Assembly: GCF_014467075.1 (NCBI RefSeq)
Contig: NZ_AP023027.1
Location: 1,801,501-1,865,500 of the forward strand
Direction of reading: 5' to 3'
DNA length: 64,000 bases
Source of the DNA: Anaerostipes caccae L1-92
GTDB lineage: Bacteria > Bacillota > Clostridia > Lachnospirales > Lachnospiraceae
Under the pieces are notes generated by a model, which was given only the letters and a program-made list of their open reading frames with translations, ran no database searches and was not told the origin of the DNA. This document shows, in pieces, positions 20,603 through 36,406 of the stretch (position 1 is its first letter; every line of letters starts with the position of its first letter). A program made the translations under genes and the position numbers.

Positions 20603-20611
20603 GGAGGGTCC

Positions 20612-20924: not shown

Positions 20925-20944
20925 GCATTAGAAAAAACGATATT

Positions 20945-22945
20945 TCAGAGTTTTTTTTCCAGTTCATGAATGATCCCATAAACTTCCTCAGGGGTTTTTG
21001 CCTCGTCCAGGTGCTGAAATAAGGTGGGACTGGACGCAACATTAATCACAGACAGTATTTTTTCATCATTTTCGGAAGTATCTGATGCAATAAAAGTAAA
21101 AATATACTTCACAGGATCATTCTGTTCATTTCCGAAGAATACCGGCTGCTTCAGGCGGATCAGACTTGCCGAAAAGGGCATAAATTCCGCACTTGCATTT
21201 GCATGGGCCAAAGCGATATGCGGCCAGAAGACAAAGTAAGGACCGTTGATTTCTATATTTTTTACGATCGAATCAATATATTCCTGAGTCATCAATCCTT
21301 CCTGCATTAATAGACTGCCGCCCAGCTGTACAGCATCTTTCCACGTACCTGCATAAAGATCCAATGCAATCAGATGCGGAGAAATTATGCTGGAAGATTT
21401 AGAGGAGGGCGCCTCCTGAGCCTCTGAAAATCTTGCAGATCGTTTGTTGAGGATATGATTTTCATCCTTCCTGGATTCATACATCTTTTCCTGAAGTTTG
21501 ATCAGATCCTCCGGCGGAAGTCCGGGCGATACGACAACAACAGGAATCGAGATTTCATCGACAGGGTAAAAGGAGACGATCAGATTCGGCGGCGGATTCA
21601 CCCTTGACATGTAATTTTTAAACTCAAAGGATGTAACCGCTTGTACATCATCTACCTTACAGTAATATTTTAATTTATTTGTGACATAGGAGGCAGCGGC
21701 GGCGCCAGTATCACAGATAAGAAGGATCTTAAATTTCTGCCGTTCTGTCAGGATTTTGGAGACAGCAGCGGCAATGTGCATGACCAAAAATGCCGTTTCG
21801 TTTTCACTGTATGTACGGTGAAAGCTCTGTTCCAGAATATATAAATTATTTTTGACCGACTTACATATGGCCGGGTACTCATCTTCCAGCTCTTTATAAA
21901 AACTCTGGTCGAAGGACGTACTTCTCTCTAACAGTGAGAAGAAACTTTTTATATGGGCAGACAGCTGATCGTAGAGCTTAACATCGTTTGCCAGCTTCAG
22001 CTTCAGATCATGAGATACATTGACCAAAAAGGTGTGGATGACGGTGTTTGACGGAATGATCCCCAGCGGAGTCTGAGGAAGGTTTGTAAGACACAGGCCG
22101 TCAATATAGGAGGCAAGGAAATAAAATTCTTCTTCTGGAATCGATGCAGAGATCACCCTCTGAATTCTTAGGTACAGATCTCTTGAGACTGCAACCGTGC
22201 GCCTGTCCGATGCGCAGGGGAATGCATCGAGGTGATTTCCCTGTTTGATTCGTTCAGCAGTCACCACGAGTATCCAGAGCAGCTGGTAAAACTGATAACC
22301 CTCAATATGAATATGATTGTCTTTCTGCCATGTAAGAAGAATCGGAAATACCTGAAGCTTGAATGCATCCAGGTCAAAATGTCTGGAAATCCATAAATCA
22401 ATGCCCGAAAAGGAAGAATGGTCTCCTGCCACATTCAAAAAAGTGTGAAAACTATTAATCAGATAATCCCTTCTGAAAACTTCACTAACATCAATCCGGT
22501 ATCCTTTCGCGGTTGTGATCAGTAAAATATCCTGCTGCTCAAGGTCCTTTGCAACTTGTTTCATATCTGAAAGACAGGTTTTTTTGCTGATATCCAGAGA
22601 ACGTATGATGTCAGACGTAGAAACCAGGTTTTGTCTGCATAAGAGCAATTTGATGATGGATGTGCGCTCTTCTGAAGAAAAATGATATTCATAGAGAGGG
22701 CGGGAATAGTATCGTTTCCGTATCATTCCAAGCTCATTGATGGAGCTGTCCAGTACAAGCGTACTGTCGGGAAGGATTTGGATTTTATGAAATCCATTCT
22801 CATGCAGGAAATCATTGATCTCAGCAATGTAGTTATTAATTGACCGCTTACCGATATGCAGCATTTCTTCTAGTTCTTTGTATGTATATTTCTTCTTTTC
22901 AGAAGATGTAAAAAGAGTAACGAGCTGATATTGTTTCTGATTCAT
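20945..22945 (-). CDS. PRD-containing, PTS-regulated transcription activator (MtlR/LicR class)
   Basis: The 666-residue protein has two N-terminal helix-turn-helix domains (about 1-65 and 85-150), two PTS regulation domains (about 170-280 and 295-405; the second keeps histidines in LSAHIKSFF and VMHIAAAV), an EIIB-like domain (about 410-495, LLICDTGAAAA with its cysteine) and an EIIA type-2 domain to the end (HIALAHANA). Such proteins are switched by phosphorylation from HPr and a cognate EIIB. ATG at 22945 follows AGGAGATTGCT; an upstream in-frame start at 22972 has no ribosome site. It is divergent from the catabolic operon starting at 23172 and is its likely regulator. Confidence 0.88.
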   Translation of the reverse strand: MNQKQYQLVTLFTSSEKKKYTYKELEEMLHIGKRSINNYIAEINDFLHENGFHKIQILPDSTLVLDSSINELGMIRKRYYSRPLYEYHFSSEERTSIIKLLLCRQNLVSTSDIIRSLDISKKTCLSDMKQVAKDLEQQDILLITTAKGYRIDVSEVFRRDYLINSFHTFLNVAGDHSSFSGIDLWISRHFDLDAFKLQVFPILLTWQKDNHIHIEGYQFYQLLWILVVTAERIKQGNHLDAFPCASDRRTVAVSRDLYLRIQRVISASIPEEEFYFLASYIDGLCLTNLPQTPLGIIPSNTVIHTFLVNVSHDLKLKLANDVKLYDQLSAHIKSFFSLLERSTSFDQSFYKELEDEYPAICKSVKNNLYILEQSFHRTYSENETAFLVMHIAAAVSKILTERQKFKILLICDTGAAAASYVTNKLKYYCKVDDVQAVTSFEFKNYMSRVNPPPNLIVSFYPVDEISIPVVVVSPGLPPEDLIKLQEKMYESRKDENHILNKRSARFSEAQEAPSSKSSSIISPHLIALDLYAGTWKDAVQLGGSLLMQEGLMTQEYIDSIVKNIEINGPYFVFWPHIALAHANASAEFMPFSASLIRLKQPVFFGNEQNDPVKYIFTFIASDTSENDEKILSVINVASSPTLFQHLDEAKTPEEVYGIIHELEKKL

Positions 22946-23085
22946 AGCAATCTCCTGATTTATCGTTGGCAATACATGTTAATTTTCTTATTCTAAAGTA
23001 AATCTTAATAAAAAAAGATAAAAAAGGCAAGAAAAAGTGTTCAGAATGACGGAAGCAAATGTTACCAAAAATCATGAAAAGCAAA

Positions 23086-23114
23086 TTGTACGTGATTTTG
23101 TACATTGCTATAAT
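23086..23114 (+). promoter_or_regulatory. Operon promoter with an inverted repeat across the -35/spacer
   Basis: TTGTAC (23086-23091), a 17-base spacer and TATAAT (23109-23114) with an upstream TGC make an extended -10 promoter. TGTAC (23087-23091) and GTACA (23100-23104) form a 5-8-5 inverted repeat inside it, a candidate regulator site. The promoter lies within the upstream part of the open frame, which helps to fix the E1-alpha start downstream. Confidence 0.65.
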
Positions 23115-23171
23115 TGCCGTAGAAACATGGAAATGACGCAGAAAGCTGCGCAGTGTACGAAAGGAGAACTT

Positions 23172-24188
23172 TTGACTACCATGAGAAATAATGCCATATC
23201 AAAAGAACAATTATTGGAATTCTACCGGAAAATGATACGGATCCGTGAGTTTGAGAATGAGGCCATTGAACTGGCCAAGATGAATCTGACCCGCGCAGCC
23301 GTCCATACATACAATGGAGAAGAAGCCATAGCCGTCGGTGTCTGTGCCCATCTTAACGATCAGGATTACATCACCTCTACCCACAGAGGGCATGGACACT
23401 GTATCGCAAAAGGCGCCGATATGAAGCTGATGTTTGCGGAACTGATGGCCAGGGAGTCCGGTTACTGTAAAGGAAAAGGGGGCTCCATGCACATTGCCGA
23501 TATGTCGATCGGTATGCTGGGTGCCAACGGTATCGTGGGAGGAGGTCTTCCGATCTCTGTGGGTGCCGCATTTGCGCTGAAATATACGTCCAGCAAAAAT
23601 ATTGCCGTATGTTTCTTCGGCGATGGTGCCTCCAACCAGGGTTCTTTTCATGAAGCGGTGAATCTGGCATCCGTCATGAAACTCCCAGTCATCTTTGTGT
23701 GTGAAAACAACCAGTGGGCGATCTCCACCAGCCAGAAAAAATCATCCAACATAGAGAATCTCAGTGACAGAGCCGTCGGATACGGAATCGAGGGCATCAC
23801 GGTAGACGGAAACGATATTGAGGCGGTCTACAGCGAGTTCGGCAGGGCGTGTGAGAAAGTAAGGGGCGGCAGCGGCCCGATCTTAATGGAAATGAAGACA
23901 TACCGCATCGCCGGACATTATTACGGAGACAACGAAAATTACAGATCCAGGGAAGAAGTCACGGAGTGGAAAGAAAAGTGTCCGATCCGGCATGTGGAAA
24001 AACTTCTGGCAGAGGAGTACGGCTTTAAAGAAGAGGATTTTAAAAAGATACAGAAAGAAGAACTCGCAGTCGTTCTTGAGGCCAGCGAAAGCGCAAAAAA
24101 TGAAAAAGAGCCCTCCCCGGAAGACTTAAGAAATGATTTATATGACACTTCATTTGCAGAGATACAGTGGAACAGGTTCGTGAAATAA
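23172..24188 (+). CDS. TPP-dependent dehydrogenase E1 component, alpha subunit (AcoA/PdhA type)
   Basis: This subunit binds thiamine diphosphate and decarboxylates or cleaves a 2-oxoacid or acetoin-like substrate. The TPP motif begins at G150-D-G-A and ends in ENN after about 27 residues; GEEAIAVGV, THRGHGHCIAKGAD, GKGGSMHIAD and RIAGHYYGDN match AcoA-type E1-alpha. TTG 23172 stands 5 bases behind AAGGAG; ATG 23181 is the alternative. The open frame continues upstream to 23037, but the promoter at 23086-23114 lies inside that extension. It is the first gene of a 14-gene operon. Pyruvate versus acetoin or another substrate cannot be told from sequence. Confidence 0.9.
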   Translation: MTTMRNNAISKEQLLEFYRKMIRIREFENEAIELAKMNLTRAAVHTYNGEEAIAVGVCAHLNDQDYITSTHRGHGHCIAKGADMKLMFAELMARESGYCKGKGGSMHIADMSIGMLGANGIVGGGLPISVGAAFALKYTSSKNIAVCFFGDGASNQGSFHEAVNLASVMKLPVIFVCENNQWAISTSQKKSSNIENLSDRAVGYGIEGITVDGNDIEAVYSEFGRACEKVRGGSGPILMEMKTYRIAGHYYGDNENYRSREEVTEWKEKCPIRHVEKLLAEEYGFKEEDFKKIQKEELAVVLEASESAKNEKEPSPEDLRNDLYDTSFAEIQWNRFVK

Positions 24189-24206
24189 GGAAAGGAAGAA
24201 GACGAT

Positions 24207-25175
24207 ATGAGAAAGATTTCTATGCGGGAAGCCATCAATGAAGCGCTTCACACGGCATTTAACAGTGACCCGTCCGTATTTTCCATCGGGGAAGATATAG
24301 CGGTTTACGGAGGGCAGCTCCGCTGTTCTTATGACTTGATTCAGAACTTCGGAGAGAAACGGATCATGGACACCCCGATTTCCGAAGCCGCCATTATAGG
24401 AACAGCCATTGGCTCTTCTATGCTCGGCTTGCGCCCTGTAGTGGAAATTTCATATATTGATTTTATCGGCACCTGCTTTGACCAAATCATGAATCAGGCG
24501 GCAAAATTACGATATATGTACGGAGGACGCGTCAGTCTGCCCCTTGTCATCCGCACCCAGGGCGGCGCAGGGTTAGGAAACGGGGCGCAGCATTCCCAGT
24601 CATTGGAGGCAATCTTTGCACATATTCCGGGAATCCGGGTCGTGATTCCGTCCAACGCCTACGACGCCAAAGGCCTGCTCCTGCACGCGATCAGAGATAA
24701 CAACCCGGTTGTGTTTATAGAGCACAAAGGTTTATACAAAAAGAAATGCGAAGTGCCTGAGGAACCATACGAATGCGGATATAACTGTGATATCAAGCGG
24801 GAGGGAAGTGACATTACAATCGTTGCATATTCTTCTATGGTGGATCAGAGTCTCAGGGCGGCCAAAGAGCTTGAAAAAGAGGGAATACAGGCCGAAGTGA
24901 TTGACGTCCGTTCTTTAGAACCATTCGATGCCGATACCATCATCTCTTCTGTCAGCAAGACAGGACACGCAGTCATCGCACACGAAGCCTGTGTCAAAGG
25001 CGGGTTCGGAGCGGAAATTGCGGCGGTGATTCAGGAAAAGGCATTCGACAAGCTCAAAGAACCTGTAAAGCGGGTGGGTGCTCCGAACGTACCGGTTCCA
25101 TTTGCGCCGGTACTTGAAAAGGCATACCTTCCTGATTATAAAGACATTCTGGATGCCGCCCATTCTTGTCTGTAA
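24207..25175 (+). CDS. TPP-dependent dehydrogenase E1 component, beta subunit
   Basis: The 322-residue protein is the partner of the upstream alpha subunit and completes the TPP site at the heterotetramer interface. Family runs visible are MREAINEALHTAF, GEDIAVYGG, DTPISEAAIIGTAIGS, EISYIDFIG, RTQGGAGLGNGAQHSQSLEA and IFAHIPGIRVVIPSN. It starts 18 bases after the alpha subunit with GGAAAGGAAG upstream. Length is normal. Confidence 0.93.
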   Translation: MRKISMREAINEALHTAFNSDPSVFSIGEDIAVYGGQLRCSYDLIQNFGEKRIMDTPISEAAIIGTAIGSSMLGLRPVVEISYIDFIGTCFDQIMNQAAKLRYMYGGRVSLPLVIRTQGGAGLGNGAQHSQSLEAIFAHIPGIRVVIPSNAYDAKGLLLHAIRDNNPVVFIEHKGLYKKKCEVPEEPYECGYNCDIKREGSDITIVAYSSMVDQSLRAAKELEKEGIQAEVIDVRSLEPFDADTIISSVSKTGHAVIAHEACVKGGFGAEIAAVIQEKAFDKLKEPVKRVGAPNVPVPFAPVLEKAYLPDYKDILDAAHSCL

Positions 25176-25189
25176 CAGAAAGGAGAACT

Positions 25190-26557
25190 ATGGATATCTT
25201 AGATTTGATTGTGATCGGAGGAGGCCCCGCAGGCTACCTGGCTGCCCAGAGAGCTGCAGAGTCCGGGATGAAGGTCCTGCTGTTTGAGAAAAAGAAACTC
25301 GGGGGCGTGTGCTTAAACGAGGGATGTGTTCCTACAAAAACCCTGCTGAATTCGGCCAAGATCTTTGATCACGCTAAAAACGGCCAGGCGTATGGCGTCA
25401 TGGCCCGCGGCGTGACCATGGATACCAAGACCGTCCTTCAAAGAAAAAATAAGGTGATACAGATGCTGGTCTCCGGCGTCGGTATGACCATGAAGAAAAA
25501 TAAGATAAAGGTCGTCTATGAGAGAGCAGAAGTCATAGAAAAAACAAAAGAAGGATTTCTCGTGGAGGCGGGAGCAGAGAGATATACCGCAAAATATATT
25601 TTGGCAGCCCCGGGATCAGAGACTCTGATTCCGCCGATCCCGGGGGTGGCAAAGGCCCTGGAAAGCGGGCTGGCCATAACCAGCAGAGAACTGTTAGAGT
25701 TGGAAGAACTCCCCGGACATCTGGCTGTCATCGGGGCCGGTGTCATCGGATTGGAGATGGCGGCTTACTGCTGTACGGCAGGTGTAAAGGTGACCGTGGT
25801 CGAGATGCTTGATAAGGTTGCTGGAAGTATGGATGCCAGACTGTCAAAGATTCTCCAGAAGGAATTGGAGAAAAAGGGGGTATCTTTCCTGATGGGACAC
25901 AAGGTCACGGAAGTAAACAGTCATGGCCTTGTGTGTGAAAAAAACGGAGAGACAAAGCTCGCAGAAGCCGATAAAATTCTTCTCTCCATAGGCAGAAAGC
26001 CCGTCATGGAAGGATGCGGCCTGGAACATATAGGAGTCGCTGCAAAACATGGGAGGGTCGTGACAGATCAGCATCTTTGTACCTCCGCAGAGGGAATATA
26101 CGCCGCCGGGGATGTCAACGGAAAAATGATGCTGGCCCACACTGCTTATCGGGAAAGTGAGGTCGCAGTCCATCATATGCTGGGCATAGAAGATGAGATC
26201 AACTATCAGACAATTCCTTCCGTCATCTACACGTTCCCGGAATTTGCGGGAATCGGGGAAACCGAAGAATCTGCGAGAGAAAAAGGCCTTGCGGTTAAAA
26301 CTGCAGAGCTTCCGATGGCCTATTCCGGCCGTTATGTGGCAGAAAATGCAGATGGAAACGGGCTGTGCAGGCTGATCATGGATCAGGAGACAGGGTGTCT
26401 TGTGGGCGCGCATCTTCTGGGGCCCTATGTATCAGAAATGATATGGGGCATCGCAGCCCTGATAGATCAGAAGGTATCTGTGGAAGAACTCAAAAAAAGT
26501 GTGTTCCCCCATCCGTCTGTCAGCGAAATTATCAGAGAAACCATATTTAAATTATAA
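25190..26557 (+). CDS. Dihydrolipoamide dehydrogenase (E3)
   Basis: E3 reoxidises dihydrolipoyl groups and passes electrons through FAD to NAD+. The 455-residue protein has an FAD-binding GGGPAGYLAAQRAAESG, the redox-active pair in GGVCLNEGCVPTK, a second NAD-binding GAGVIGLEMA, AAGDVNGK, and the catalytic FPHPSVSE near the C terminus. No lipoyl domain is fused to it, unlike some Firmicute E3 proteins. ATG 25190 follows AAAGGAG; the open frame begins at TTG 25166 inside the E1-beta gene. Confidence 0.94.
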   Translation: MDILDLIVIGGGPAGYLAAQRAAESGMKVLLFEKKKLGGVCLNEGCVPTKTLLNSAKIFDHAKNGQAYGVMARGVTMDTKTVLQRKNKVIQMLVSGVGMTMKKNKIKVVYERAEVIEKTKEGFLVEAGAERYTAKYILAAPGSETLIPPIPGVAKALESGLAITSRELLELEELPGHLAVIGAGVIGLEMAAYCCTAGVKVTVVEMLDKVAGSMDARLSKILQKELEKKGVSFLMGHKVTEVNSHGLVCEKNGETKLAEADKILLSIGRKPVMEGCGLEHIGVAAKHGRVVTDQHLCTSAEGIYAAGDVNGKMMLAHTAYRESEVAVHHMLGIEDEINYQTIPSVIYTFPEFAGIGETEESAREKGLAVKTAELPMAYSGRYVAENADGNGLCRLIMDQETGCLVGAHLLGPYVSEMIWGIAALIDQKVSVEELKKSVFPHPSVSEIIRETIFKL

Positions 26558-26583
26558 ACCCAATGAGTGAAAGGAGAAGCAGT

Positions 26584-26826
26584 ATGAGAAAAGAAGTCAT
26601 TATGCCGAAAATTGGATTGGACATGGAGGAGGGTACAATTCTTGAATGGAAAAAGAAAGCAGGTGATACTGTTTCAAAAGGCGAAGTCCTTTTGGAGATC
26701 GAGACAGACAAAGCAGTGACCGAGGTAGAATCAGCGCTTGACGGTACGTTGGCTGAAATTGTAGCTGACGAGGGCGATACCGTTGAGATCACAAAAACGA
26801 TTGCCTGGGTAGAAGTCGATGATTGA
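26584..26826 (+). CDS. Stand-alone lipoyl (biotinyl/lipoyl) carrier domain
   Basis: This 80-residue protein is only a lipoyl domain: IMPKIGLDMEEG at the start and the lipoylation site K43 in ETDKAVTEVES at the hairpin tip. In most 2-oxoacid dehydrogenases this domain is the N terminus of E2. Here it is a separate gene that overlaps the next one, the E2 catalytic domain, by 8 bases. The start is ATG 26584 after AAAGGAG; ATG 26563 is in frame but poorly placed. It is the probable target of the operon's lipoate ligase (33123). Confidence 0.9.
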   Translation: MRKEVIMPKIGLDMEEGTILEWKKKAGDTVSKGEVLLEIETDKAVTEVESALDGTLAEIVADEGDTVEITKTIAWVEVDD

Positions 26827-27472
26827 AAAGAAACTTTCGCCTTTAGCCAAAAGTATGGGAAAGCAGATGGTAAAAAGCTGGGAAGCTCCACAATTTACAC
26901 ATTTTTCAGTGATAAATTGTGAGCAGATGATCGCATACCGAAAAAGTTTACCGTTCAAAGTCTCATACACAACTATTTTAATCAAAGCGGTGGCAGATAC
27001 AATCGCCGAGTTTCCCATTATGAATTGTTCCTGGGATGACGGAACCAAGATCATCCAGAACGAAAATATCAATATGGGCGTCGCCGTAGATACAAAACGT
27101 GGTTTATTAGTCCCTGTTATCAGAGATGCAGACAAACTGCCTCTGGAAGAGATTCACCGATGTATGGGAGATATCAAAAATAAATCAGGGAAAGGAAACT
27201 TTAACATGAATGATTTAAGCGGGGGAACTTTTGTCGTGAGCAATCTGGGAATGTTTAATATCCACGCATTTTCTGCAATCGTCAGCTCTCCCAACTCTGC
27301 CATCATCTCTGCTGGAAAGATGGAAGAAGTCCCCCTGGTAAAAGACGGGGAGATCGTCATAGGCAAAACCATGACCATAGCTCTTAACATGGACCACCGT
27401 GTTATTGACGGAGCCACAGGAGCCAAATTTCTGACAGCCCTCGCAGAGCGGCTGGAAACTTTAAATGAATAA
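26819..27472 (+). CDS. E2 acyltransferase catalytic domain without lipoyl or E3-binding domain
   Basis: The 217-residue protein is a bare 2-oxoacid dehydrogenase acyltransferase core. It begins with LSPLAKSMGKQMVKSWEAP, equivalent to the start of the catalytic domain, contains NMNDLSGGTFVVSNLGMFN, and ends with the active-site motif DHRVIDGATGAKFL. It moves the acyl group from lipoamide to CoA. A peripheral subunit-binding domain, which usually tethers E1 or E3, is absent here and in the lipoyl protein. Its start overlaps the lipoyl gene in the ATGATTGA context. Even if the two were joined by a frameshift, the subunit-binding domain would still be missing. Confidence 0.88.
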   Translation: MIEKKLSPLAKSMGKQMVKSWEAPQFTHFSVINCEQMIAYRKSLPFKVSYTTILIKAVADTIAEFPIMNCSWDDGTKIIQNENINMGVAVDTKRGLLVPVIRDADKLPLEEIHRCMGDIKNKSGKGNFNMNDLSGGTFVVSNLGMFNIHAFSAIVSSPNSAIISAGKMEEVPLVKDGEIVIGKTMTIALNMDHRVIDGATGAKFLTALAERLETLNE

Positions 27473-27490
27473 GGAAAGGAAGATGTACTT

Positions 27491-28531
27491 ATGAAAGCTG
27501 CTGTACTATACGGAGCAAATGATCTGCGCTATGAAACTGTTGATACTCCGATGTGTCCGGAAAAAGGAATTCTCCTGAAAGTCATTGCCTGCGGTATCTG
27601 CGGCTCCGACCTGCGCACCTACGGGGGAGGCTCTTCCAGGGCACAGTACCCGTCTGTTTCCGGTCATGAGATTGCCGGAGAGATTGTGGAGAGTCAGAAT
27701 CTGAACTTCCCTGTGGGAGCGAAACTGTCTGTGGCCCCGGTCATCGCATGCGGCCATTGCTGGTACTGTAAAAACGGTATTCAGAACCAATGTGACAATA
27801 TGAAGATGATCGGTACTGCGGAAGGGATTCCGGGAGGTTTTGCCGAGTATGTTTCATTCACAGAAGACATGCTGGAAAATGGTTGTTTTAATATCATTCC
27901 TGAAGGGATAGACCCGGTCGATACCGTAATTGCAGAGACGGCTTCTTCCGTGCTGAATGCACAGATCAATACAAACATTGTCATGGAAGATCTCGTAGTC
28001 ATCATCGGGGCCGGTACCATCGGATGTCTTCACAGCGAGATTGCATCGATCCGGGGAACCAAAGAAACGGTCATCGCCGAGATGAACACAGAGAAGGCTG
28101 AACTGGCCAGAAAACAAGGGTTTCAAAATGTTTATAACATGGGTAGCGGCGACCCGGAACTAAAAGAATTCATCATGGAAAAAACCAACGGCCGCGGCGC
28201 CGATACCGTCATATGCGCGTGTCCGGCAGGACAGGCACAGGCGGATGCTGTCGGATTGGTGAGAAAAAGAGGAAAGATCATTTTCTTTGGAGGGATTTCT
28301 GCAGACAGTGCTGCAGTCATTGACACTAATGCTATCCACTACAAAGAAATTACGGTTCACGGAGCGTCAGCCTATTCGCCTGAGGTTAACCGTAAGGCAC
28401 TGGATCTTGTCTTAAGCGGTCAGCTTGACGCATCAAAATTCATCACACACCGCTATGAATTAAAAGATCTGGCACAGGGATATGAGGATATGAGTCATGG
28501 AAAAATGATCAAGGGAGTCGTAGTCTTTTAA
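27491..28531 (+). CDS. Zinc-dependent medium-chain alcohol/polyol dehydrogenase
   Basis: The 346-residue protein has catalytic zinc ligands C37 (CGICGSD) and H59-E60, four structural-zinc cysteines C87, C90, C93 and C101, and a nucleotide-binding GAGTIGCLHSEIA. It resembles the sorbitol, galactitol-1-phosphate and threonine dehydrogenase branch. Beside a galactitol-family PTS, the simplest role is NAD-dependent oxidation of an imported polyol phosphate, or of an intermediate, to a ketone; that is inference. It follows the E2 gene by 18 bases. A 6-bp hairpin sits in the gap to the PTS genes. Confidence 0.88.
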   Translation: MKAAVLYGANDLRYETVDTPMCPEKGILLKVIACGICGSDLRTYGGGSSRAQYPSVSGHEIAGEIVESQNLNFPVGAKLSVAPVIACGHCWYCKNGIQNQCDNMKMIGTAEGIPGGFAEYVSFTEDMLENGCFNIIPEGIDPVDTVIAETASSVLNAQINTNIVMEDLVVIIGAGTIGCLHSEIASIRGTKETVIAEMNTEKAELARKQGFQNVYNMGSGDPELKEFIMEKTNGRGADTVICACPAGQAQADAVGLVRKRGKIIFFGGISADSAAVIDTNAIHYKEITVHGASAYSPEVNRKALDLVLSGQLDASKFITHRYELKDLAQGYEDMSHGKMIKGVVVF

Positions 28532-28583
28532 CGAAATATATGCCGCAGACAAGGCATAGGAAATTAAATCAGAGGTGATCATT

Positions 28584-28877
28584 ATGGAGAATAAAACAAT
28601 TTTGGTATTATGCGGTGCAGGCTTTGCAACTTCCACGGTAGGAGCAAAACTGTGTGAAGATGTGTGTAAAGAATTGGGGATGAAAGGAAACGTACAGAAA
28701 AGGCCCGCAACCCAGGGTAAGACAGCCATCAAACAGCTGGAACCGGATGCTATCTTATTGATGGCAAAGATCACACTGGATTTTGGAGACATTCCTGTCG
28801 TAAACGGAATTCCGCTGATTACAGGGAGAGGCAAAGATGAAGTAAGGCAGAATCTCAAAGAAGTACTGATGAAATAG
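28584..28877 (+). CDS. PTS galactitol-family EIIB component
   Basis: The 97-residue protein carries the phosphocysteine C10 in LVLCGAGFATSTV, the EIIB-Gat pattern. It receives phosphate from EIIA and passes it to sugar bound to EIIC. ATG 28584 is 7 bases behind AGAGGTG; the in-frame GTG at 28575 is part of that site. EIIA and EIIC follow directly, giving a complete permease. Confidence 0.9.
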   Translation: MENKTILVLCGAGFATSTVGAKLCEDVCKELGMKGNVQKRPATQGKTAIKQLEPDAILLMAKITLDFGDIPVVNGIPLITGRGKDEVRQNLKEVLMK

Positions 28878-28911
28878 CAGACCGGGAAACGGCATAATAA
28901 GGTATCGGGAG

Positions 28912-29391
28912 GTGAGCAAGATCGACATTCAAACAGTTATGCCTCAGATCATGGGGTATCAGATAACAGGAACAGAGCGGGATGATGTCCTTACAGAGAT
29001 GGCAGATTTCCTTGCATCCATGGGGATGGTCAAACCGACTTACGCAAAGGCCGTTATTGACCGGGAAAACATTTATCCTACAGGAATCTGTACAGAGCCT
29101 TACCCTGTGGCGATTCCCCACTGCGAGAGAGACGGTGTCTTAAAAACCGCCATCCTGGTGGGTCAGACAAGGAACAATGGAATCACATTCCAGCGTATCG
29201 ATGACACAGATCTGAATGTAGATGCAAAAGTGATTTTTATGCTGGCGGTAGATACAAATCAAGGACAGTTGGAGGTGATATCAAAACTAATGGACGTGAT
29301 TCAGGACGAGAAAGTAGTGGAAGAAATTGTACATGCGAAGACGTGCGAAATGATAAAAGAAATTGTAACAAATGCCTTTATGAATGGGTAA
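28912..29391 (+). CDS. PTS EIIA component (type-2/galactitol-like)
   Basis: The protein has the EIIA active site histidine (H70 when counted from GTG 28912) in VAIPHCERDGVLKTAI. It accepts phosphate from HPr and donates it to EIIB. The start is uncertain: GTG 28912 overlaps the only good ribosome site (GGGAGGTGA), and the next ATG at 28939 would trim the first family helix and lies too far away; ATC 28921 or ATT 28927 would be non-canonical options. Length, about 159 residues, is normal. Confidence 0.87.
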   Translation: MSKIDIQTVMPQIMGYQITGTERDDVLTEMADFLASMGMVKPTYAKAVIDRENIYPTGICTEPYPVAIPHCERDGVLKTAILVGQTRNNGITFQRIDDTDLNVDAKVIFMLAVDTNQGQLEVISKLMDVIQDEKVVEEIVHAKTCEMIKEIVTNAFMNG

Positions 29392-29416
29392 ATCACAGAG
29401 ATGAAAGGAGATTTAT

Positions 29417-30685
29417 ATGGAAGCTTTTTTTAATGGATTGTCCTCCGCTTTATCAAGTCTTGGGGCCAACGGTATCCTGCCCATCGGCCTGTTTATTCTG
29501 GCTCTGGTCTTCCGGCTGAAAATTGGGGAAGCCCTCCGGGCAGCGCTGACCGGTGCCGTAGGAATGGTTGGAATGAATCTTACCACAGATATGCTGGTTG
29601 CCCAAATGACACCGGCAACCCAGTCTATGGTGGAACGTCTTGGCTGGCACTTAGATATTGTAGACACCGGCTGGTCGCTGATGTCATATGCGTGGGGGTC
29701 TCCTGTTTCAGGAATTCTCATTATCCTTGGAATCGCGCTGAACTTGTTTTTGCTGGTAACGAACTTTACCAAAACTCTAATGATCGACTTTTGGAACTAC
29801 TGGAGCTTCTTAGCCTGCGGGGCTTTGATTTACGGAGCCACAGAAAGTGTCTTATGGTCCGTTGCAGCCACAGGTATTTACATGATCGTTGCATGGAAAT
29901 GGTCTGACCACGTTGCCCCGATTTTTCAGGAAGCAAGCGGTATGGAGGCCTGCACCTGGCCGACAGGCGCAATTATAGCTCCGGCTATGATCGGCTTTCC
30001 TGTGATTAAATTATGCCAGAAGATCCCTGTCATTAAAGATATCAAAGCAGACCCGGAACATCTTCAGAACAAGTTGGGTGTTTTCGGTGAAACCATGGTC
30101 GTCGGTTTTTTCATCGGCATCATCATCGGAATTCTGGCAGCCTTTGATGTGATTAAATGCTTCCTGCTCGGTGTCAATATGGGAGCAGTCATGATCTTGC
30201 TCCCACGAATGATATCTATCATGATGGAAGGAATTCTGCCGATTGCCAACGCTGCCCAGGAATTTTGCGAAAAACATCTGCACGGCAAAAAAATCTGGAT
30301 CGGCATTGACGCATCCACCCTTATGGGGAATCCATGTAATATGACGAGCATTATGATCATGACACCGATTGTAACTGCCATGTCGATTATTCCGGGAAAC
30401 CGTATGCTTGCTGTTGCCAGTCTTGTGGCAGTTCCCTGGTTTATCATTCCGCTGGCCTACTACGCAAAGGATAATATTCTGCATACCTGTATTGCAGCAT
30501 TTGCAGTATTTTGCGTTTACTTCCTGTGCGCCACGGCTCTCGCAGGGGCACACACCAACATTGCCCACATATGCGGTTCCCTGGCAAACGGAAACACGCT
30601 TACCAGCTGTCTGTCTGAGGGAGGAAATCCGATCACATGGATCATCTATAAACTCCTGCAGATTTTCGGGCAGACAGTAATCTAA
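29417..30685 (+). CDS. PTS galactitol-family EIIC permease
   Basis: A 422-residue integral membrane protein with about ten hydrophobic segments. The GatC-type features are the start with a short amphipathic helix, ANGILPIGLFILALVF, NLTTDMLVAQMTP, and the central GNPCNMTSIMIMTPI region. It carries and phosphorylates the substrate during uptake. In galactitol operons the neighbours include tagatose-bisphosphate aldolase genes; none is present here, so the substrate is probably a different polyol or sugar. AAAGGAG precedes the ATG. Confidence 0.9.
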   Translation: MEAFFNGLSSALSSLGANGILPIGLFILALVFRLKIGEALRAALTGAVGMVGMNLTTDMLVAQMTPATQSMVERLGWHLDIVDTGWSLMSYAWGSPVSGILIILGIALNLFLLVTNFTKTLMIDFWNYWSFLACGALIYGATESVLWSVAATGIYMIVAWKWSDHVAPIFQEASGMEACTWPTGAIIAPAMIGFPVIKLCQKIPVIKDIKADPEHLQNKLGVFGETMVVGFFIGIIIGILAAFDVIKCFLLGVNMGAVMILLPRMISIMMEGILPIANAAQEFCEKHLHGKKIWIGIDASTLMGNPCNMTSIMIMTPIVTAMSIIPGNRMLAVASLVAVPWFIIPLAYYAKDNILHTCIAAFAVFCVYFLCATALAGAHTNIAHICGSLANGNTLTSCLSEGGNPITWIIYKLLQIFGQTVI

Positions 30686-30696
30686 AGGAGCTTATC

Positions 30697-30960
30697 ATGG
30701 TGAAAAGAAAAGTCACAGTCACAAATGCATCGGGGCTTCATGCCAGGCCGGCATCTATGTTTGTGAAAGAAGCAAAAAAATATAAGAGCAGCCTGACCAT
30801 AAAAACAAAAGGCAAAGAAAAAGATGGGAAATCTATTATGGGAATCTTGTCCTGCGCTATCTGCCAAAATACGGAGATTGAGCTGATATTCGAAGGTGAA
30901 GATGAAGATTTGGCAGCAGATGCGTTGGCAGAGTTAGTCGAGTCCGGATTCGGAGAATAG
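30697..30960 (+). CDS. HPr-family phosphocarrier
   Basis: The 87-residue protein has the phosphorylated histidine in GLH15ARPA and the regulatory serine context K45-S46-IMGILS used by HPr kinase in Firmicutes. It starts 11 bases after the EIIC gene with AAAGGAGC upstream. It may be a second, operon-specific HPr; the general ptsH is normally located with ptsI elsewhere. Keeping Ser46 means it could still take part in carbon catabolite signalling. Confidence 0.9.
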   Translation: MVKRKVTVTNASGLHARPASMFVKEAKKYKSSLTIKTKGKEKDGKSIMGILSCAICQNTEIELIFEGEDEDLAADALAELVESGFGE

Positions 30961-30975
30961 AAAGAAGGTGTTTCT

Positions 30976-31074
30976 ATGTATTATTTATTGTTCCTGGTTG
31001 TTGGCGGAGCTGTATGGACGCTGGTACTTCGGAACCGGCGTGAAAAACGGAAACGGATACATCATAAAAACTAG
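30976..31074 (+). CDS. 32-residue single-span membrane peptide
   Basis: This short frame lies between the HPr and RuBisCO-like genes. It starts at an ATG behind GAAGGTG and ends in TAG. The product has one hydrophobic segment of about 17 residues (YYLLFLVVGGAVWTLVL) followed by a strongly basic tail (RNRREKRKRIHHK), giving an N-out/C-in small membrane protein by the positive-inside rule. It fills almost all of the gap, is spaced like the other operon genes, and has its own ribosome site, so it is probably translated. I know no family; a role in binding the PTS permease is speculation. Confidence 0.6.
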   Translation: MYYLLFLVVGGAVWTLVLRNRREKRKRIHHKN

Positions 31075-31097
31075 TCAGACAATGGAGGAAATTTATT

Positions 31098-32342
31098 ATG
31101 AAGTTTGAAACGATGAAGCTGCCGGAAAGTGTGAATGAAGATTTCCTGACTGCTGTATATTATATGAATTCTGCAAGAGAGCCGGATCTCTATGACTGGG
31201 TGAAGCTTGTGGCTGCCGATCAAAGTGCGGGAACGTGGACTCATGTGGAAGGAGAGACACCGGAAGTCATAGAGAAATATGGCGGAAAAGTCATCGGCAT
31301 TTATCCAATGGCAGAGGAACACGCATGTATTGCACGCATTGCATTTCCTACGGCAAACTTTCCTGCCTACCTTCCGATGATCCTGAGTACTGTGGCCGGA
31401 AATGTACTGGGACAGGATGGGATCAAGCTTATGGATATTGAATTTCCGGAAAAAATCCTAAGGGAAATCCCAGGTCCCCTGATGGGAGTCGAAGGGATTC
31501 GTGAACGGATCGGTGTGCCAGACAGGCCTCTTGTAGGTGCTATTTTAAAACCCTGCATCGGAGTGCCGCCAGAAATCAGCGCAAACGGAGCACGCCAGGC
31601 CGCCCTTGGCGGGGCAGATGTCATCAAGGATGATGAGCTCTTATCTTATCCGGAATATTCTCCTATGGAGAAACGTGTGGCCGCTGTCATGGAACAGATC
31701 CGGGACATTGGGAAGGAGAAGACTTGTCTGTATGCGGTCAATATCACAGGAGAAAATCTATTTGACCGGGCAAGACGGGCTATTGATGCCGGAGCCAATG
31801 CGCTGATGGTAAATTACCAGGCAATGGGCTGGGGAGCTGTGGAAGATTTTATCCGTGCAATGAAGCGTGAAAAGCTTATTTATCCGATTTTCGGACATTG
31901 TGCGGGTATGGGTGCCTATTACCGTTCGAAGACAAATGGAATCTCAACGGCACTTTCCATGGGAAAACTGGCCAGACTTTCCGGCATGGATATGCCTTTA
32001 GTGTACCCGGACAGCGGCCGTTTCGGCCTTAGTACCAATGAATTTGTGGAGACCCATGCACAGTGTATCGCCCCGATGAAACATATAAAAAGAGCATTCA
32101 TGACCGTAGCAGGCGGTGTACAGCCTGGAGCTGTAGAGTATCTGATGGATCTGCTGGGAAATGACTGTATTCTGATGGCCGGAGGAGGTATTTACGGACA
32201 TCCGATGGGAGCAGAAGCAGGGGCAAAGGCAATCCTCTCCGCCATCAATGCCAAAATGAAGGGTAAAACAATCCTTGAGGCGGCTTCGGAATGTGCGGAA
32301 CTTCAGGCGGCTATTGATGTATGGGGAACAAAAGGACATTGA
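31098..32342 (+). CDS. RuBisCO-like protein (form IV-type)
   Basis: The 414-residue protein has the RuBisCO large-subunit fold signatures but not a carboxylase site. Aligned by eye to spinach numbering: K151 matches K175, C153 replaces K177, K177/D179/E180 match the carbamylated K201 and metal ligands D203/E204 (VIKDDELLSYPEYSP), H267 matches H294, and AGGGIYGHPMG matches the phosphate-binding strand. The loop-6 lysine (K334) is replaced by PDSGRFGLS and the S379 region reads TVAGGV. It should enolise a phosphorylated ketone, isomerise, cleave or decarboxylate it; known relatives act in methionine salvage and apionate degradation. The operon context is neither of those. Confidence 0.9.
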   Translation: MKFETMKLPESVNEDFLTAVYYMNSAREPDLYDWVKLVAADQSAGTWTHVEGETPEVIEKYGGKVIGIYPMAEEHACIARIAFPTANFPAYLPMILSTVAGNVLGQDGIKLMDIEFPEKILREIPGPLMGVEGIRERIGVPDRPLVGAILKPCIGVPPEISANGARQAALGGADVIKDDELLSYPEYSPMEKRVAAVMEQIRDIGKEKTCLYAVNITGENLFDRARRAIDAGANALMVNYQAMGWGAVEDFIRAMKREKLIYPIFGHCAGMGAYYRSKTNGISTALSMGKLARLSGMDMPLVYPDSGRFGLSTNEFVETHAQCIAPMKHIKRAFMTVAGGVQPGAVEYLMDLLGNDCILMAGGGIYGHPMGAEAGAKAILSAINAKMKGKTILEAASECAELQAAIDVWGTKGH

Positions 32343-33154
32343 GAACCTGTGAGATCTATTTCATAGGAAATGCGGGTGTATTGATTTCCGCAGACGATAC
32401 CTCAGTTCTCATAGACGGACTATATAGTTCCAGAGGCGGGGAATTTCCAGTCAGTCCTATCCCTGGAGATGTCCTGAACGAGCTTTACAGCAGACGGGGA
32501 CCGCTGCCTGAACCGGATTATCTGGTCTTTTCTCATCCTCACTATGACCATCTGTCGGAAAAGCTGCTCGATTCTTATCTGGATACTCACCCTTCCGGCT
32601 CCGTCTATCTGCCGGAAGGGACATCATCTGCATATGTACGTTCATTATATAATATGAAGCAGAGGGGAAACACATACGAGATCATCACCGGGAAAGAGCG
32701 GCAGTACCGGCCGGGAAAAGATCTTGAGATTTCTTTCTATAAAACAAGACATCTGGGAAAGAACTTCAAACAGACTCTGCACTATTGTATCCTGATTACA
32801 ATTTCTTCATGCCGGCTGCTTTTTACCGCAGATGTAGATTTCTTTTCAGAATCTCTTAGTCAATTCAGTCAAGTTCCCCTGAATGCTGCATTTGTAAATC
32901 CGTTTCTTTACCATAATGAGGAAGGACAAAAAATTCTTAGGAACACTCTGCAGGCAGAACATACTTATATTTATCATGTTCCCTTCGAGGAAAATGATAA
33001 ATATCATATCCGGCATATGATAAACAAAGATCTTTACAGATACCGAAAGACCACACCTGCCGTTCTGCTCTGTACCCCGCGGCAGAATGAAAAACTGACG
33101 CTGAAGGAAGGAGAACAGACATATGATGTACTATATCGAAAGTCCCAGCAGTGA
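32321..33154 (+). CDS. Metallo-beta-lactamase-fold hydrolase
   Basis: The 277-residue protein has the metal motif H72-x-H74-x-D76-H77 (FSHPHYDHLS), a later TRHLG histidine and LLFTADVDFF aspartate, so a two-metal MBL fold. Substrate is unknown; lactonase (UlaG-like), phosphodiesterase or thioester hydrolase roles are all possible. The ATG at 32321 overlaps the RLP gene by 22 bases with only a weak ribosome site; TTG 32339 is an alternative. Its 3' end overlaps the lipoate ligase gene by 32 bases, so it is an integral part of the operon. Confidence 0.8.
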   Translation: MGNKRTLRTCEIYFIGNAGVLISADDTSVLIDGLYSSRGGEFPVSPIPGDVLNELYSRRGPLPEPDYLVFSHPHYDHLSEKLLDSYLDTHPSGSVYLPEGTSSAYVRSLYNMKQRGNTYEIITGKERQYRPGKDLEISFYKTRHLGKNFKQTLHYCILITISSCRLLFTADVDFFSESLSQFSQVPLNAAFVNPFLYHNEEGQKILRNTLQAEHTYIYHVPFEENDKYHIRHMINKDLYRYRKTTPAVLLCTPRQNEKLTLKEGEQTYDVLYRKSQQ

Positions 33155-34112
33155 TCCATATTTTAATCTGGCACTGGAGCAGTATGTATTTGACTGTCTG
33201 GACCGGAGCCACAGCTACTTTATGCTGTGGCAGAATGATAATGCGGTGATCGTGGGAAAGCATCAAAATACCATCGCGGAGATCAATGAAACTTTTGTCA
33301 GAGATCACGGCATAAAAGTGGTAAGACGCCTCTCTGGAGGAGGAGCTGTTTATCATGATATGGGGAATATCAATTTTACTTTCATTGTAGACAGAGACGA
33401 TGGTCTTTTTGATTTTTCAAAGTTCTGCCTGCCATTGGTTCGTGCACTGGAAAGCGTGGGTGTGGCTGCCGAGATCAATGGACGCAATGATATAACTATC
33501 GATAGAAAAAAATTTTCCGGAAATTCACAATATTCCAAAGAAGGCCGTACCATGCATCATGGGACGGTCATGTATGACAGTGATTTAAATACCGTAGAAA
33601 ATGTTCTGAAGGTTTCAAATGATAAAATAGAGTCAAAAGGGTGTAAATCTGTCATAAGCAGGGTGACAAATGTACGTCCTTATGTCCGTACAGATATGAA
33701 TACAAAACAATTCTTTGGTACCCTCAGAGATTTTATGATGAAAGAAAATAAACTGATCCCTTATCATCTTACCGAGCAGGACTATCTGGCGGTGCATCAA
33801 TTAAAAAATACCCGATACAGTACATGGGAGTGGAACTATGGTTTTTCCCCTAAGTATGCGGTTGAAAAAAAACGGCGGGTAGAGGGATGCGGCTGCATCG
33901 AAGTACATATGAACGTGGAAAAGGGGATCATCACTGGGATTGCATTTACAGGTGACTATTTCTCTGACGCGGACAGTTCTTCCCTTGCACGTCTCTTAAC
34001 GGGCTGCAGACTCTGTATGCCTGATTTATCAGAAAAACTGAAATCTGTTTGCATTGGAGATTATTTTCATAACCTTACCAGCAATAAATTTATAAAACTG
34101 CTCCTTGAGTAA
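33123..34112 (+). CDS. Lipoate-protein ligase A type
   Basis: LplA activates lipoate with ATP and attaches it to a lysine of lipoyl domains. The 329-residue protein has RRLSGGGAVYHDMGNINFTF, KFSGNSQY and a C-terminal accessory domain, matching full-length LplA. It starts at ATG 33123 behind AAGGAG, inside the MBL gene, and closes the operon before a terminator. Its natural client is the operon's lipoyl protein (K43), so the operon carries the means to activate its own dehydrogenase complex when lipoate can be scavenged. Confidence 0.92.
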   Translation: MMYYIESPSSDPYFNLALEQYVFDCLDRSHSYFMLWQNDNAVIVGKHQNTIAEINETFVRDHGIKVVRRLSGGGAVYHDMGNINFTFIVDRDDGLFDFSKFCLPLVRALESVGVAAEINGRNDITIDRKKFSGNSQYSKEGRTMHHGTVMYDSDLNTVENVLKVSNDKIESKGCKSVISRVTNVRPYVRTDMNTKQFFGTLRDFMMKENKLIPYHLTEQDYLAVHQLKNTRYSTWEWNYGFSPKYAVEKKRRVEGCGCIEVHMNVEKGIITGIAFTGDYFSDADSSSLARLLTGCRLCMPDLSEKLKSVCIGDYFHNLTSNKFIKLLLE

Positions 34113-34120
34113 AAATAAAG

Positions 34121-34164
34121 AGGACGGGAAACATACATGCAGTGGTATGCTCCCTGTCCTTTTT
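34121..34164 (+). terminator. Terminator of the RLP operon
   Basis: AGGACGGGAAACATAC (34121-34136) pairs imperfectly with GTATGCTCCCTGTCCT (34145-34160) and runs into five T (34160-34164). Confidence 0.75.
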
Positions 34165-34175
34165 ACAGTGATCTT

Positions 34176-34604
34176 TTATCTCAAAAAACATTTCCTCTTT
34201 ATAAAATAAGCCGCAGCCACGAGCATTCCCAGCACGGAACAGATCAAAAAAAATCCATTGCTGGATATTGATTCTGTGATGAGAAAGAAACTGTCTTTGC
34301 TGAAAAATATGAGATATATCTGACTGACAAAAGCTGCAATGCTCCCGATGCCAACGGCTCCGGCCAGAACGGTCCAGACTGGATCGCTTAGGTCAAAGGC
34401 TCCTTTTATAATCATTTCCAAAAAAATCAAAGTAAAAGCAGCGACAATAATAAAGGTATTATCCCATATTCCGTCAATCAGAATATAGCTCCTTGTTCTC
34501 AAATAAGTATCCGCAAGCAAAAGCACAGACATTAAGAGAATCCCGTGCAGCAGCGCATTTTGGCGCGCTTTCAGCTGTTTTATTGTAGATGTATCCTGAC
34601 TCAT
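34176..34604 (-). CDS. Small integral membrane protein, unknown function
   Basis: The 142-residue product has a charged N terminus (KQLKARQ) and four hydrophobic segments of about 20 residues each, with a short basic C terminus. I do not recognise a characterised family. ATG at 34604 is preceded by AAAGGGGAATGAG; the open frame starts at 34682 but lacks a ribosome site there and would extend into the upstream promoter zone. It is convergent with the RLP operon and divergent from the metal transporter. Confidence 0.7.
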   Translation of the reverse strand: MSQDTSTIKQLKARQNALLHGILLMSVLLLADTYLRTRSYILIDGIWDNTFIIVAAFTLIFLEMIIKGAFDLSDPVWTVLAGAVGIGSIAAFVSQIYLIFFSKDSFFLITESISSNGFFLICSVLGMLVAAAYFIKRKCFLR

Positions 34605-34684
34605 AAACTCATTCCCCTTTCTCCTATGAAGTATAAGTATATGATAATTCGACAAAAGATTCAACCACGTGAAAATTTCCATAT

Positions 34685-34713
34685 TTGCAATTCAAATTTT
34701 TTCCTGCTATTAT
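34685..34713 (+). promoter_or_regulatory. Promoter of the metal ABC transporter operon
   Basis: TTGCAA (34685-34690), 17 bases, TATTAT (34708-34713) preceded by TGC (extended -10). No clear Zur or MntR box could be identified in the AT-rich surroundings. Confidence 0.55.
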
Positions 34714-34742
34714 ATTCAATTAGATAATATAGAGAAAGGAAC

Positions 34743-35696: not shown

Positions 35697-36406
35697 CTTC
35701 CATTATTACGTGCAGTCATGTAGATCTTGGATATGACGGACATGTCATCGTAAAAGACTTAAATATGAAAATAGAACAGGGGGCTTATGTCTCTGTCATC
35801 GGACAAAATGGCTCCGGTAAGAGCACGTTTATCAAGACGCTGCTGGGTCTTGTGCGCCCTGTCTCCGGGAAAATTCAGCGCAGTCTTTCGGGAAAAGGCA
35901 TCGGATATCTCCCACAGCAGACGGAAATGCAGAAAAATTTTCCGGCAACTGCCCTGGAAGTGGTTCTGTCAGGGTTTTTAAGCCGAAAACAGCGAAGGCC
36001 TTTTTATACGAAAAAAGAAAAATCCACCGCCATGGAGCAGTTAGAGAAGCTTGGTATTCCGGAGCTTTTCAAAACATGCTATCGGGAGCTTTCCGGCGGC
36101 CAGCAGCAGAGAGTCCTGTTGGCAAGAGCCTTATGCGCAACCGATCAGCTGCTGGTCCTGGACGAGCCGGTGACAGGTCTGGACCCGGGTGCCGCAAAAG
36201 AACTCTATCTCTTGCTGAAGGAACTCAACAAAAATGAGGGCATCGCAATTCTGATGGTCTCCCACGACTTGTCCAATGCCTTAAAAGATGCGGATGAAAT
36301 CCTCCACATCCGGCATGAGGATTACTTCTTCGGCAGTGTTTCAGAATACTGCCGTTCTGAACATTTTCGTGAAATGAATGGAGGTGCTGTTCATGGAATT
36401 GTTTAA
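35693..36406 (+). CDS. Metal ABC transporter ATP-binding protein
   Basis: The 237-residue ATPase has Walker A GQNGSGKST, signature LSGGQQQR, Walker B LLVLDEP and switch SHDL, all intact. It overlaps the binding-protein gene in an ATGA junction. It powers uptake of the metal delivered by the 34743 lipoprotein through the 36393 permease. Confidence 0.94.
   Translation: MTSIITCSHVDLGYDGHVIVKDLNMKIEQGAYVSVIGQNGSGKSTFIKTLLGLVRPVSGKIQRSLSGKGIGYLPQQTEMQKNFPATALEVVLSGFLSRKQRRPFYTKKEKSTAMEQLEKLGIPELFKTCYRELSGGQQQRVLLARALCATDQLLVLDEPVTGLDPGAAKELYLLLKELNKNEGIAILMVSHDLSNALKDADEILHIRHEDYFFGSVSEYCRSEHFREMNGGAVHGIV

Follow-up and report, generated by a model that had tools for sequence, protein, structure and literature searches.

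A window of 64,000 nucleotides from Anaerostipes caccae L1-92 (contig NZ_AP023027.1, positions 1,801,501 to 1,865,500), whose genome is complete in one contig of 3,590,719 bases, carries a 14-gene operon that joins a RuBisCO-like protein (RLP) to all the parts of a 2-oxoacid dehydrogenase-type complex: E1, a lipoyl domain, an E2 catalytic domain and E3. The gene content of the operon, the conservation of its core in other bacteria, the residue changes in both enzymes and a genome in which no second lipoate system was found form the established part of this analysis. The reading tentatively preferred for its function, with a confidence somewhat short of even, is the fermentation of a polyol or deoxy-polyol, in which the RLP would isomerise and the lipoyl complex would cleave a ketol phosphate; we infer every reaction of this scheme and its substrate. 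Should such a cleavage take place, fermenting gut bacteria would gain a way from deoxy- or branched sugars to acetyl-CoA, growth on the substrate would depend on outside lipoate, and a function could be offered for E1/E2/E3 clusters annotated as pyruvate or acetoin dehydrogenases. RLPs have few known jobs, and because this clade is distinct and its partner constant, its function can be tested.

One genome per species was scanned, and 16 loci with a relative of the window RLP (L003 to L018) were found. The genes for E1-alpha, E1-beta and the lipoyl protein adjoin the RLP gene in 15 of these loci, and that for E2 also does so in 14. An earlier sequence-only reading of this DNA had suggested a search for the same neighbourhood in other gut Firmicutes. 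The 15 module loci are spread over 13 assemblies, with two each in E. pallens and E. florum, and belong to Anaerostipes, Lachnoclostridium, Christensenella and Enterococcus as well as unclassified Clostridia. Because the pairing recurs in 15 of 16 loci across four named genera and unclassified Clostridia, the linkage of RLP and E1 exceeds chance. Distances between RLPs and between E1-beta proteins correlate at 0.91 (16 members; 0 of 2000 permutations as high), a value to which the shared descent of the hosts contributes. Among the incomplete loci, L010 has the lipoyl gene and no E2 was found there, L004 has no match to an alcohol dehydrogenase (ADH) and is missing the end of E2, and L018 (RLP 37% identity, 5 kb contig) has no E1-alpha, E1-beta, lipoyl or E2 gene.

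The genes around this pairing fall into three layouts. The window and nine further loci (type A) combine a phosphotransferase system (PTS) of the GAT type with a zinc-dependent medium-chain dehydrogenase (Zn-ADH), the latter in eight of the nine. Four loci (type B) have an FGGY kinase and a gene of the 2-hydroxyacid-dehydrogenase family; three of the four also have an Rbs-like ABC transporter and, divergent and further off, a Zn-ADH. The two remaining loci (type C), both from Enterococcus, have a different GAT-like PTS (26% to the window IIC) and a 2-hydroxyacid-dehydrogenase gene. Since all three layouts share RLP and E1/E2, these genes are the conserved core, and the entry steps, transporter and dehydrogenase, are swapped between loci. 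With its PTS and Zn-ADH exchanged elsewhere, the pathway is not defined by the galactitol-type PTS of the window. Regulation also varies: a LevR/DagR-like sigma-54 regulator replaces the PRD/EIIA activator of the window in the Enterococcus type-A loci (L011, L012, L015, L016 and L017), and L007 (11290-16327) has a LevR-like regulator, HPr and an enzyme I gene 3' of the RLP, thus its own general PTS proteins.

The features of the operon, in window positions, are as follows.

20945..22972, minus strand: divergent regulator with an HTH/Mga-like region and PRD and EIIA domains (PF00874, PF00359).
23181..24188, plus strand: E1-alpha of a thiamine-dependent dehydrogenase complex; motif R38-A39-A40-V41-H42, with Ala at the position of Phe61 in human pyruvate dehydrogenase (PDH).
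24207..25175, plus strand: E1-beta (family match).
25166..26557, plus strand: E3, dihydrolipoyl dehydrogenase (451 bits against a cut-off of 409).
26563..26826, plus strand: free-standing lipoyl domain protein (PF00364).
26819..27472, plus strand: E2 catalytic core (PF00198 only, without a lipoyl or subunit-binding domain match).
27491..28531, plus strand: Zn-ADH (family match).
28575..28877, plus strand: PTS EIIB, galactitol-like (family match).
28912..29391, plus strand: PTS EIIA, galactitol/fructose-like (family match).
29417..30685, plus strand: PTS EIIC, GAT family (family match).
30697..30960, plus strand: HPr-family phosphocarrier (family match).
30976..31074, plus strand: 32-residue membrane peptide with a WTL[VI].R..R motif; no family matched.
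31098..32342, plus strand: RLP; K151, K177-D178-D179-E180 and H267 retained, R308 at the K334 position.
32321..33154, plus strand: metallo-beta-lactamase-fold (MBL) protein with an HPHYDH motif.
33123..34112, plus strand: lipoate-protein ligase LplA, the sole LplA match in the genome.
34116-34165, plus strand: terminator-like hairpin with a T-run (-22.5 kcal/mol).

The 14 plus-strand genes span 23181-34112 with intergenic distances of -32 to +43 bases, and the operon with its divergent PRD/EIIA activator is real. The sequence-only reading had described the same tightly spaced run of 14 genes on one strand, and its families (E1-alpha, E1-beta, E3, lipoyl protein, E2 core, Zn-ADH, GAT-type IIB, IIA and IIC, HPr, RLP, MBL and LplA) all hold, as does the activator, which lies on the strand given for it with both PRD and EIIA domains matched, and a terminator-like hairpin closes the run. 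Its start at 23086 has to be moved, with E1-alpha most likely beginning at ATG 23181, directly 5' of which stands AAGGAG. Nor is its single promoter borne out: positions 20500-34800 hold 25 sigma-70-like matches, no excess over a shuffle mean of 23.5, and the match inside the divergent gap scores 9 of 12. Family searches of the operon agree that it contains neither an aldolase nor a sugar kinase. A galactitol or tagatose route, which that reading had thought unlikely, was rejected on the absence of an aldolase from the operon and on PTS scores below the galactitol cut-offs (IIC 318 of 542, IIB 45 of 95 and IIA 85 of 139 bits).

The fold of the RLP is clear from its sequence matches, the best-matched solved structure being that of the 2,3-diketo-5-methylthiopentyl-1-phosphate enolase MtnW (2oek, 228 bits). 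The protein nonetheless falls below the cut-off of all six NCBIfam families matched, including both MtnW models (299.6 of 409 and 254.6 of 513.6 bits), type III RuBisCO (253 of 497 bits) and OiaX (175.6 of 700 bits). The 64 operon-type members (62 distinct), picked beforehand by rank in the homologue list, group as one clade in a 129-sequence tree, with a support of 0.857 and a long stem of 0.52. Residue positions were placed by alignment with a form I RuBisCO, whose numbering and residue roles are used here. K175, K201, D203, E204, H294, G381 and G403 are retained in all 64 clade sequences, which thus all have the K201-D203-E204 carbamate/Mg site together with K175; with K175, K201, D203, E204 and H294 kept, the residues for enolisation are present. 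Five residues that RuBisCO uses on its bisphosphate and CO2 are absent, K177, R295, H327, K334 and S379 aligning with C, C, L, R and A in the window RLP, and RuBisCO activity was rejected on these substitutions. The K177 position is Cys in 64 of 64, and the clade is distinct in its K334 position, which is Arg in 64 of 64 as against Lys in all 58 sister sequences (39-46% identical). Lys98, the catalytic general base of MtnW, is replaced by Asn in 63 of the 64, the window RLP among them, and by Ser in one. This change, the scores below the MtnW cut-offs and an operon without mtn genes led to the rejection of a role in methionine salvage. Sister RLPs (L134-L150; 35-40% in blastp matches) stand in very varied catabolic contexts, among them RpiB with TIM, a GlpA-like dehydrogenase with an FGGY kinase, an aminotransferase, a PTS with a class II aldolase, and DUF1537-like with PdxA-like genes, and in L142 (3017-10627) a PTS-Gut cluster with the oxidoreductase DXR-II lies about 3 kb from the sister RLP gene.

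The complex that accompanies the RLP is unusual in two respects. Its E2 is split: in the window, and in each of the 14 loci where both are present, the lipoyl protein and the catalytic core are encoded by separate genes that lie in different frames (L017 read by eye). No subunit-binding domain was matched in the window proteins; a one-chain E2 is thus not what the operon encodes. Six plasmid loci of other types have one shared reading frame that both the lipoyl and the E2 query match. The second respect is the E1 pocket. Phe61 and His63 are listed among the catalytic-site residues of human PDH (PMC6168537), and the Phe of the E1-alpha motif is equated with Phe61 because it stands two places before His63. 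Among the 120 nearest homologues listed for the window E1-alpha, 119 have R-A-A-[IV]-H and the remaining one R-A-S-V-H, and the Phe61 position is Ala in 15 of the 16 locus rows and Val in L003. The PDH row reads G-G-F-C-H, the four acetoin-type rows P-G-F-[VI]-H, two rows adjoining TRAP transporters P-G-F-V-H and A-G-N-I-H, and nine rows linked to DXR-II (Priestia included) as well as a C. difficile row H-G-T-[MT]-H. Both the RLP-linked and the DXR-II-linked E1 thus carry a smaller residue at the Phe61 position. Lys178 of E1-beta was also considered as a diagnostic residue and was not used, there being basic residues nearby in the B. stearothermophilus and T. thermophilus rows.

Genome searches place the lipoate metabolism of the host in the RLP operon only. 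They found one E1-alpha (other PF00676 matches are below 50 bits), one E2 and one LplA, no GcvH, and no LipA above the cut-off (25 of 310 bits), from which it follows that lipoate must come from outside.

Acetoin dehydrogenase cleaves acetoin, an acyloin, and thiamine enzymes of this class can cleave acyloins such as 1-deoxyxylulose 5-phosphate (DXP). In the scheme favoured here, the GAT-type PTS with its own HPr would import and phosphorylate a polyol or deoxy-polyol, one hydroxyl of which the Zn-ADH would oxidise to a ketone. The RLP, its Mg2+ bound to a carbamylated lysine, would enolise the ketose phosphate and, through a proton transfer (1,2 or 1,3), shift its carbonyl, so that the product would be a 2-ketose phosphate whose non-phosphorylated end bears an acyloin group. 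E1 with thiamine diphosphate would attack the acyloin carbonyl and free an aldose phosphate, and the acyl group would pass by way of the free lipoyl protein to the E2 core and leave as acyl-CoA, with E3 returning electrons to NAD+ and LplA attaching scavenged lipoate to the lipoyl protein. Precedent for the carbonyl shift comes from the DeepYkr RLPs, 5-methylthioribulose-1-phosphate 1,3-isomerases: R. palustris RLP1 converts methylthioribulose 1-phosphate to methylthioxylulose 5-phosphate, and both it and the R. rubrum RLP form the 1-methylthio analogue of DXP by shifting the carbonyl of a pentulose phosphate (PMC5893883). Such a 1-substituted 2-pentulose 5-phosphate is the kind of product proposed here; the DeepYkr enzymes differ in serving methionine salvage with MtnP/MtnA and a cupin, and the likeness is one of broad family and product. 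Joining the carbonyl shift of an RLP to the acyloin cleavage of a thiamine enzyme yields the proposed route.

Support for the scheme is drawn from the enolisation residues kept by the RLP, the recurrence of the module in 15 of 16 loci, a genome in which no second E1, E2 or LplA and no GcvH were found, nor a LipA above the cut-off, the altered E1 pocket motif, and related E1 sets that adjoin DXR-II or, in L133, an FGGY kinase and an ABC transporter. The order put forward by the sequence-only reading (uptake as a PTS phosphate, oxidation, the RLP, then CoA-dependent cleavage) fits the comparative evidence, with the reservation that PTS and Zn-ADH lie outside the conserved core. Its further suggestion that the RLP might itself cleave a C-C bond found no support; cleavage is more probably the work of the E1 complex, since relatives of it adjoin uptake and kinase genes, or DXR-II, without an RLP.

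These related complexes are found partly on plasmids, where clusters of Rhizobium and Sinorhizobium are among the nearest relatives of the window E1-alpha. The oxidoreductase encoded in them matches Brucella DXR-II (PDB 3upl, 721 bits); DXR-II converts DXP to 2-C-methylerythritol 4-phosphate (MEP; PMC3847144). It lies no more than 170 bases away in 32 of the 34 plasmid records whose E1-alpha shares 53.9% identity or more with that of Rhizobium (among the matches listed, 60 of 710), and that E1 adjoins DXR-II in 32 of the 39 records with a DXR-II at least 43.9% identical (among the matches listed, 60 of 111); many of these plasmid records are near-identical, including six Rhizobium plasmids. 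Of the other seven DXR-II records, six showed no such E1 among the rows used; the two Priestia genes stand 8.4 kb from each other. Uptake genes differ between the clusters, glucitol-type PTS genes being present in some and an ABC transporter with a sugar kinase in others, and in L064, L067, L073, L074, L075, L077 and L088 (rhizobial and related plasmids) DXR-II stands directly 5' of E1-alpha/E1-beta/E2 with one or the other. They resemble the window operon in combining PTS or ABC uptake, an E1 complex (E1-alpha 46-50% identical) and a DXP enzyme, and differ in having DXR-II in place of the RLP and dehydrogenase and in a one-chain E2. It is possible that they are 2-C-methylerythritol catabolic operons, in which, we infer, DXR-II would run backwards on imported 2-C-methylerythritol. 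No published function was found for these clusters, and no open-access paper on a backward use of DXR-II with 2-C-methylerythritol.

Other relatives extend the pattern, with neighbouring genes named by the best match to our own reference set. In L133 (Lachnoclostridium An131) an E1/E2 set occurs with the FGGY kinase and ABC transporter and no further enzyme was recognised in the run; in L122 (Christensenella) an E1 set is accompanied by E3, a kinase and a SorC-like regulator; and in L128-L130 (Enterococcus) its companions are a PTS, a short-chain dehydrogenase and a 100-residue protein matching no known family. These layouts fit complexes acting directly on a sugar phosphate. The Christensenella genome G770 has seven further E1-type clusters (L121-L127, thus including L122), six of which adjoin ABC transporter or sugar kinase genes. 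A C. difficile cluster (L086, 825-14830) contains a sugar-binding regulator, E1-alpha, E1-beta, E2, E3, a sigma-54 regulator, PTS IIA-IIB-IIC, a class II aldolase and LplA, with ispD-ispF adjoining. It is like the window operon in its E1-E1-E2-E3 genes, PTS IIA-IIB-IIC and LplA and has a SorC-type regulator; it is unlike it in the aldolase and in a stretch without RLP or Zn-ADH.

The most economical chemistry for the scheme would take 5-deoxypentulose 1-phosphate to DXP and on to acetyl-CoA and glyceraldehyde 3-phosphate, a cleavage that would formally be DXP synthase in reverse plus an oxidation. In this narrower form, a new RLP isomerase would supply DXP or a homologous 1-deoxyketulose phosphate, the complex would release acetyl-CoA and a triose or tetrose phosphate, and the rhizobial DXR-II clusters would belong to the same wider, so far unrecognised, E1/E2/E3 family; we regard this version as possible, with odds well short of even.

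Several observations weigh against the preferred scheme or its link to DXP. There is no E1 in the stretches examined around DXR-II of Listeria (L079), L. salivarius (L080) and E. raffinosus (L078), and DXR-II therefore does not need such a complex. The E1 tree fails to join the RLP-linked to the DXR-II-linked E1 (support 0.72 at the node that lies between these two) and thus does not settle the nearest outgroup of the RLP-linked E1. Both of these E1 groups also have a basic residue two places ahead of Phe61, which lacks specificity, as Arg occupies that place in human PDH. The MBL protein and the membrane peptide have no role in the scheme; among L003-L018, MBL-fold matches occur in the three Anaerostipes loci only, and short peptides resembling the membrane peptide stand 5' of the RLP gene in L003, L004, L005 and L007. 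Finally, a 2-hydroxyacid-dehydrogenase family gene, in place of the type-A Zn-ADH, lies within the core of six of the 15 loci (L006, L008, L009, L010, L013 and L014), where an acid would fit better than a polyol, and some sister RLPs adjoin RpiB, TIM, aldolases or acid-sugar genes, which would fit a decarboxylase. As an observation on the DXR-II loci themselves, those of L079, L080 and L078 are clustered with glucitol-type PTS and SorC-type sugar-binding regulator genes.

The 2-hydroxyacid-dehydrogenase genes and the sister contexts lead to an alternative in which the RLP would be a 3-oxo-acid phosphate decarboxylase like OiaX, with the Zn-ADH or 2-hydroxyacid dehydrogenase making the oxo acid from an acid sugar and the complex cleaving the resulting ketol phosphate. 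Besides the dehydrogenase gene in the six cores, sister RLPs that adjoin RpiB and TIM in L139, L144 and L146, and one in L149 near DUF1537-like and PdxA-like genes (named by eye), speak for it, and the sister contexts favour a decarboxylase for at least some sister RLPs. In A. radiobacter and X. autotrophicus, RLPs use 3-oxo-isoapionate-4-phosphate as the substrate of a decarboxylation or transcarboxylation (cited in PMC6302742). OiaX, the 3-oxo-isoapionate-4-phosphate decarboxylase, is likewise an RLP of carbohydrate catabolism; the window RLP, however, scores far under the cut-off of its model and has lost both R295 and K334, which the single OiaX compared retains. A GAT PTS with Zn-ADH suits polyols, and ordinary 3-oxo aldonates would yield ketoses needing no acyl-CoA-forming complex. 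For the operon studied here we consider this alternative unlikely.

The plain acetoin and pyruvate dehydrogenase readings are retained as weak rivals. An ordinary acetoin dehydrogenase with the Zn-ADH as butanediol dehydrogenase, the PTS and RLP being joined to it by chance, is improbable. The best match of the lipoyl protein is an acetoin dehydrogenase E2 model (89.5 bits), AcoABCL shares E1-alpha/E1-beta, E2 and E3 with the window complex, and the window E1-alpha is 48% identical to that of acetoin-type Enterococcus plasmid clusters with a sigma-54 regulator. The aligned pocket residues, however, are Pro, Phe and Glu in the four acetoin-type rows as against Arg, Ala (Val in L003) and Ile in the 16 RLP-linked rows, the window E1-alpha having Arg, Ala and Ile; the E2 is split, the neighbours are others, the RLP is a constant partner, and acetoin needs no PTS uptake.

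Following closely behind, and also improbable, is the breakdown of a phosphorylated 2,3-diketone such as phosphorylated autoinducer-2 (phospho-AI-2), in which the RLP would enolise like MtnW and the complex would free acetyl-CoA. In its favour, the Lsr route likewise yields acetyl-CoA. An FGGY kinase is present in the type-B loci, with Rbs-like ABC genes in three of the four, and MtnW acts on a 2,3-diketone 1-phosphate (PMC6302742). Set against these are the Asn at the MtnW base position of the window RLP and two scores in L006: the AI-2 kinase model gives its FGGY kinase 176 bits (cut-off 528) as against 293 from XylB, and the LsrB model gives its binding protein 33 bits (cut-off 384). That the complex is the pyruvate dehydrogenase of the host, in a general fermentation cluster, is very improbable: it is the sole E1/E2 found in the genome, its best E1 models are PDH and E1-beta passes PRK09212 (359 of 321 bits), yet E1-alpha is under both PDH cut-offs (362 of 394 and 268 of 411 bits), Phe61 is lost, the link to the RLP is constant, and Enterococcus and Christensenella hosts have further E1 genes.

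Each gene family of the operon is already known. Open-access literature, which leaves subscription journals mostly uncovered and is thus weak evidence, gave no account of the pairing of RLP and lipoyl complex, of the RLP clade or of the split E2, all of which therefore appear undescribed there, and no paper combining a RuBisCO-like protein and acetoin dehydrogenase was found in it.

The RLP family is sparsely distributed. By RLP, the nearest relatives are Anaerostipes metagenome-assembled genomes (86-89% identical). Members of the close family were found in the window genome only among the 387 genomes sampled from the family of the host (the single same-genus genome listed had no match), the 392 from its order and the 391 from its class, where the remaining matches are at most 42% identical, and in two of the 398 from its phylum. 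Rank-by-rank sampling thus gave no new close relatives except G1133, whose match shares contig number, coordinates and E-value with the L007 genome G768. Rarity within each rank together with spread over distant genera suggests horizontal transfer of the RLP family. Downstream of the operon, at 34743-37214, stand metal ABC transporter genes for a binding protein, an ATPase and a permease, whose names were assigned by eye and which are judged to have no connection with it.

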